Shown here one piece after another: positions 39,081 to 40,080 of a DNA stretch of 41,813 nucleotides. The position numbers and the translations under genes were made by a program. Where the stretch lies: NCBI GenBank assembly GCA_003225495.1, contig QIAJ01000215.1, forward strand, positions 1 through 41,813. The letters run 5' to 3'. This DNA comes from Acidobacteriota bacterium. GTDB lineage: Bacteria > Acidobacteriota > Terriglobia > Terriglobales > Acidobacteriaceae. Under the pieces are notes generated by a model. It ran no database searches and had not been told where the DNA came from. It saw nothing but the letters and a program-made list of their open reading frames with translations. The stretch's first letter is position 1, and every line of letters starts with the position of its first letter.

Positions 39081-39797
39081 ATGTCAAATAACGGATTTCA
39101 CAATGGAGCCTCGCGCTTCCACAATCTGCGCTCGCTGTTCAGCATGTTTTCGAGCGACCTGGCGATTGACCTCGGCACCGCGAATACTCTCGTGTACGCG
39201 CGCGGCAAGGGGATCGTGGTCAATGAACCCTCCATCGTCGCGCTGAACAAGAACACCAACGAAGTGGAGGCGGTCGGAAAGGAAGCCAAAGAGATGCTGG
39301 GGCGGACGCCCGGCAATATCGTGGCCATCAAGCCAATGAAGGACGGGGTCATTGCCGACTTCAAGGTTACCGAGAAGATGTTGAACTACTTCATCCAGAA
39401 GGCGCACAACCGCAAGATGCTGGTGCATCCGCGGATCGTGATCGGCGTGCCCTCGGAAATCACGCAGGTCGAAAAGCGCGCCGTAATGGATTCCGCTTAT
39501 CGCGCGAAGGCGAGCGAAGTGTATCTCGTGGAACAGGCGATGGTCGCCGCGATTGGCGCCGGCCTGCCCATTACAGAGCCAAGCGGCAATATGGTCGTCG
39601 ACATCGGCGGAGGCACCACCGACATTGCAGTCATTTCTCTTAGCGGCATTGTTTATTCGCGTTCAGTGCGCATGGCGGGGAATCAGATGGACGAGGCCAT
39701 CATGAATTACCTCAAACGCAAATATAACTTGCTTGTGGACCATGGAGATCAAGGGCCGCAATCTGATCGAAGGCGTGCCCAAGACAATTACGGTTGA
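39081..39797 (+). CDS. mreB: MreB, N-terminal part, frameshifted by internal deletion
   Basis: MreB is the actin-like protein that organises wall synthesis in rod-shaped cells. Residues 1-218 are clean Mre[19 protein letters not shown] (phosphate 1), [45 protein letters not shown] (phosphate 2) and [22 protein letters not shown]. The normal next segment, GERTAE...IGSAYPL, about 22 residues, is missing; the frame then drifts into [20 protein letters not shown] and stops at 39797. The rest of MreB ([12 protein letters not shown]...) resumes in another frame near 39739. A net loss of about 65 nt would produce this. RBS GAGAGAAG precedes the ATG; TAAAAT at 39044 may be its -10. Confidence 0.85.
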
Positions 39798-40080
39798 TGA
39801 CAGCGAGATTCGCGAGGCGCTCAGCGAATGTATTTCGACGATCATGAATGCGGTCCGCGTGGCGCTCGAGCGGACGCCTCCGGAACTTTCGGCTGACATC
39901 AGCGACCGTGGCATCGTCCTGACGGGCGGAGGCGCGTTGATCAAGAATCTCGACAAGCGTATCCGCGAGGAAACCGGACTGCCGGTGTCGATTGCCGACG
40001 ATCCGCTGTGCAGCGTGGTGCTCGGTACGGGCAAGATGTTGTCGGACTTCAAGCTGCTGCGGAAGATTTCGATCGAGTAG
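39733..40080 (+). CDS. mreB: MreB, C-terminal part, out of frame with the N-terminal part
   Basis: 115 residues opening at TTG 39733 (ATG 39742 is also possible), neither with an RBS. It reads [50 protein letters not shown], then [35 protein letters not shown] and the normal C-terminus LLRKISIE. It contains the conserved adenosine-pocket TGGGAL motif. It overlaps the N-terminal ORF by 65 nt in a different frame. It is the intact 3' end of one mreB gene and probably not translated alone. Confidence 0.82.

Follow-up and report, generated by a model that had tools for sequence, protein, structure and literature searches.

A frame break in the mreB gene of a Terriglobales soil acidobacterium, most likely a local assembly error

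The mreB gene in the MAG of a soil acidobacterium from the Terriglobales is split over two reading frames. This break is best explained as a local assembly error, with a probability of roughly 0.93, and in the organism itself mreB is most likely ordinary and intact. The explanation is strongly argued from sequence comparison rather than proven, and the break most likely has no biological significance. MreB is the actin-like rod-shape protein of bacteria, and its gene usually stands in the order mreBCD. The window, i.e., the whole stretch of DNA analyzed (41,813 nucleotides), is the entire contig C210 of draft genome G000, which counts 4.54 Mb in 261 contigs and is 91.6% complete with 2.57% contamination. 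The features discussed are listed in Table 1.

Table 1. Features of the window and mreB-like genes or pieces in sister genomes that have more than one
Feature	Position	Strand	Description
FecR-like gene	37696-38982	+	FecR match below curated cut-off (22.6 of 24 bits); C-terminal Glucodextran_B match
mreB, 5′ part	39081..39738	+	in frame; covers MreB_Mbl profile positions 2-197; DNA identity with 16 genus orthologs 84.7-87.8%
mreB, join	39738..39739	.	65 nt absent versus 16 aligned intact genus orthologs; no N; 0-1 nt common to borders
mreB, out-of-frame tail of first ORF	39739..39797	+	19 unrelated residues after NLLV, then stop; first codon spans join
mreB, 3′ part	39739..40080	+	other frame; MreB_Mbl profile positions 218-325; reaches normal stop; purifying selection
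mreC	40237..41451	+	intact, 404-aa ORF with MreC core
mreD	41453..41813	+	open to contig end, which is the window end; MreD match 24.8 versus cut-off 24 bits
mreB-like genes or pieces, G008	C32, C30, C56, C95
mreB-like genes or pieces, G004	C35, C83, C153
mreB-like genes or pieces, G011	C93, C10, C31
mreB-like genes or pieces, G003	C72, C101, C168
mreB-like genes or pieces, G012	C87, C89

The break and its surroundings

The first mreB ORF (39081-39797) encodes 238 amino acids and reads normally up to KRKYNLLV. In an alignment with 16 intact orthologs from the genus, the gap comprises exactly 65 columns between 39738 and 39739, i.e., 22 codons minus one base, and the missing segment corresponds to 22 residues, GERTAEQIKMEIGSAYPLDKPL, in the intact relative G015. 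Each of the two parts by itself exceeds the cut-off of the MreB_Mbl profile (PF06723), the matches lying in two frames. No single frame holds the whole domain, of which profile positions 198-217 are absent as assembled. A first-pass annotation had described mreB as broken by an internal deletion plus a frameshift, which is confirmed by the profile matches and the alignment, and its estimate of about 65 nt and about 22 residues around the GERTAE stretch was correct. On both sides of the join the DNA is collinear with the 16 orthologs, at the identity given in Table 1 before it and at 81.7-87.6% after it, a match that is far beyond chance.

The window holds no runs of N. No direct repeat was found flanking the join, which, together with the 0-1 nt that its borders have in common, rejects slippage between direct repeats as the origin of the gap. 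The missing segment is of average conservation, with 546 of 1000 sliding windows being more conserved, and is thus not the most conserved part of mreB. The 22 absent residues presumably form part of the nucleotide-binding region, and the stretch that holds them can be aligned as far as the solved MreB structure 4cze. For both halves of mreB as for the flanking genes, the nearest sequences come from the same relatives in overlapping sets, and a chimera of two species at the join was not seen.

The genes at the locus stand in the order mreB-mreC-mreD. The first-pass annotation had described mreC and the visible mreD as clean; mreC is whole, and mreD matches its profile just above the cut-off and is open to the end of the contig. 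Among named records, the MreC protein is closest to MAGs of Terriglobia and Acidobacteriaceae (up to 80% protein identity), those named Candidatus Sulfotelmatobacter reaching 72% and below, from which the organism is probably a member of the Terriglobales. DNA that is 78-79% identical to the FecR-like gene is also present at the mre loci of relatives.

Broken essential genes in the same assembly and in the genus

The evidence that carries most weight comes from rpoB. In the main copy, on contig C134 (at about position 4247 of locus L127), 20 nt are absent without any N, and the frame is broken: one frame aligns with residues 1-619 of the intact G015 protein and another with residues 618-1494, the loss falling within the conserved stretch LGPGGLSRERAGFEV. 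Contig C66 begins with a further rpoB fragment (L126, positions 2-782), in which 80 nt are missing and the frame changes, again with no N at the join. This second copy suggests that the bin contains foreign sequence. The pieces of the C66 fragment have 78% and 95% protein identity to G015, and over the same residues C134 has 91% and 98%. Since the first stretch of C134 likewise resembles G015 less closely, the interpretation of the C66 fragment as a plain chimera is weakened to a suggestion, whereas its N-free loss of 80 nt and its change of frame hold.

Cells cannot live without RpoB. Because rpoB is broken in the same way as mreB although its loss would be lethal, the assembly makes such N-free joins, and it breaks genes that cannot be lost. 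No real event explains the rpoB breaks in a living cell, and they therefore outweigh the points that speak against an assembly error, namely that N-free breaks at mreBCD are confined to this genome, that truncated mreB paralogs exist in two sister genomes, that the missing segment is of average conservation and that other conserved families of G000 look whole. Runs of N occur in this draft genome as well (2 in 291,534 bases examined). The frames of recA, groEL, two DnaK-type genes, ATP-synt_ab and most GTP_EFTU genes look whole, as judged from frame length and profile cover of unaligned sequences.

Across 24 genomes of the genus, conserved genes were classed as full-length, split or cut, and not found. 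The respective counts are 16/5/3 for mreB, 14/7/3 for recA, 11/9/4 for groEL and 12/4/8 for the rpoB domain, with the rpoB of G000 entered as full in this domain tally and its break lying outside the domain. Splits and cuts are more frequent in recA and groEL than in mreB, N gaps and contig ends being their usual sites, and mreB is not singled out for breakage. N runs occur at the mreB break in G002 (2), G005 (2) and the second mreB of G012 (23), with coding sequence missing around each, and contigs of G014 and G016 start inside mreB. Eight of ten broken recA, groEL or rpoB loci from sister MAGs hold N runs; those without N are the recA of G023, with an N-free loss of 103 nt, and the rpoB of G012. 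Among four further rpoB loci, the break in G004 coincides with an N run, the G002 locus has N runs yet keeps to a single frame, and the loci of G007 and G003 (contig C127) are truncated where their contigs end. The first-pass annotation had listed a misassembly among its options, and this one is supported, both by the N-free breaks in rpoB of the same assembly and by the broken recA, groEL and rpoB genes in sister MAGs.

A set of 68 named acidobacterial loci (L051-L118, obtained by dropping 7 non-acidobacterial rows of 75, and overlapping the genus set) gives a similar survey of mreB, which is intact in 54 loci, partial or broken in 12 and not present in 2. All 12 partial or broken genes contain either an N run or the beginning of a contig. 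An N-free internal break at an mreBCD locus was found in G000 only, and in none of the other genus orthologs or the 68 named loci. A search of genome_contigs, in which records of the window itself or very close to it may be lacking, did not find the exact join in any other genome. Two of the named loci have mreC without an mreB-like sequence upstream, i.e., L110 (palsa_248, on a contig of 746,746 bases) over 4 kb and L102 (bog_226) over 0.9 kb, where the contig ends. A tblastn search of these upstream regions returned no match at 1e-5 and just chance-level ones at 10; mreB may lie elsewhere in both genomes.

A clue to how such joins could arise comes from exact 31-mers that several species have in common. 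Within mreB, their share is highest (0.56) in the 65-nt bin directly before the join (gene positions about 585-650), and a second peak of 0.54 is present at about 260-325, the region of the breaks in G002 and G005; for most of the remaining bins the share is 0.1 to 0.3. Such peaks would fit a tangling of reads from related species. In such genes, the short reads of related, co-occurring species probably have long exact words in common, at which the assembler may lose its path; the two ends of mreB would then be joined without the intervening bases.

Loss, polymorphism and split expression as alternatives

A real, very recent deletion of 65 nt, which would have disabled the sole mreB of a strain able to do without MreB (being spherical or slow-growing) and kept mreC and mreD, is very unlikely. 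In its favor, the break is N-free and the assembly lacks a replacement. The first-pass annotation had proposed a second mreB copy elsewhere, which was rejected, since a profile search of the draft assembly (261 contigs, 91.6% complete) found no other mreB. Further matches to the MreB profile fall in frames of 642 and 668 residues, which we read from length and profile position as probably of the DnaK type.

Besides this, between two and four genes or fragments resembling mreB are present in each of five genus members (Table 1), and the majority of the additional copies have a DNA identity of about 71-78% with the mreB of the window. Two of them are N-free, 5′-truncated paralogs inside contigs, covering residues 131-354 (G003 C101; L039, 5846-6517) and residues 264-354 (G011 C31; L041, 5810-6082) of the intact protein, and both have about 88-90% protein identity to a paralog in G008. 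Possibly they are real remnants, and their presence in two sister genomes counts for a real deletion; copies of mreB may thus truly decay within the genus, even if the two in question are paralogs.

The state of the gene itself points the other way. Both halves, the out-of-frame one included, are under strong purifying selection, with dN of 0.002-0.030 versus dS of 0.67-1.56 against genus orthologs (dN/dS about 0.002-0.03). These values derive from 15 comparisons for the left half and 16 for the right half, the left half of L034 being omitted as out of register by a 3-nt length difference. There is one disabling change in mreB, and neither relaxed selection nor further disabling changes, as expected for a pseudogene, were found. 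A very recent loss would look equally undecayed. However, the same logic that turns the mreB gap into a real deletion implies that rpoB was lost by N-free deletion as well, which is not viable, and the borders offer no repeat favoring slippage. A full-length ortholog is kept in 16 of the 24 genus genomes, and a coccoid lineage without MreB, as envisaged in the first-pass annotation, is thus not supported; nor is a true loss of mreB, with rpoB broken likewise in the same assembly. If the deletion were real, the organism would be a naturally MreB-free soil acidobacterium in a genus whose members mostly keep MreB.

Still less probable is a real polymorphism, in which a minority of the sampled cells carries the deletion and the assembler picked that version. 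In its favor, MAGs are population composites. The points against a real loss apply here too, and the breaks in rpoB are better explained by assembly. Lastly, expression of mreB as two chains or through recoding is hardly credible: an ATG at 39742 is in frame with the second part, but by eye no ribosome-binding site precedes it, the 22 absent residues would not be regained by switching frames, and the other genus orthologs show no N-free arrangement of this kind.

Comparison with known systems

An assembly error, the preferred explanation, calls for caution, as gaps often interrupt conserved single-copy genes in the genus's MAGs from soil, and N-free joins sometimes do so too. Because of such breakage, other essential genes of the same assembly should be checked before a gene loss is read from it. 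A narrow literature query on frameshifts and misassembly in MAGs returned nothing, and the titles and opening lines of abstracts on mreB, acidobacteria and cell shape held nothing on this question.

Compared to known MreB systems (PF06723), the locus is alike in that the two parts of mreB span nearly the whole profile and are followed by mreC and mreD. It differs in that profile positions 198-217 are gone and the frame is lost, as assembled. According to one study, gaps and local assembly errors that are left uncorrected in MAGs bring wrong protein-coding sequences into public databases, where they propagate (PMC7111523). The mreB break resembles such local and scaffold-gap errors, since bases are missing where two ends meet within a conserved gene, and the assembly in which it occurs errs elsewhere too. 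It differs from them in that the join contains no N.
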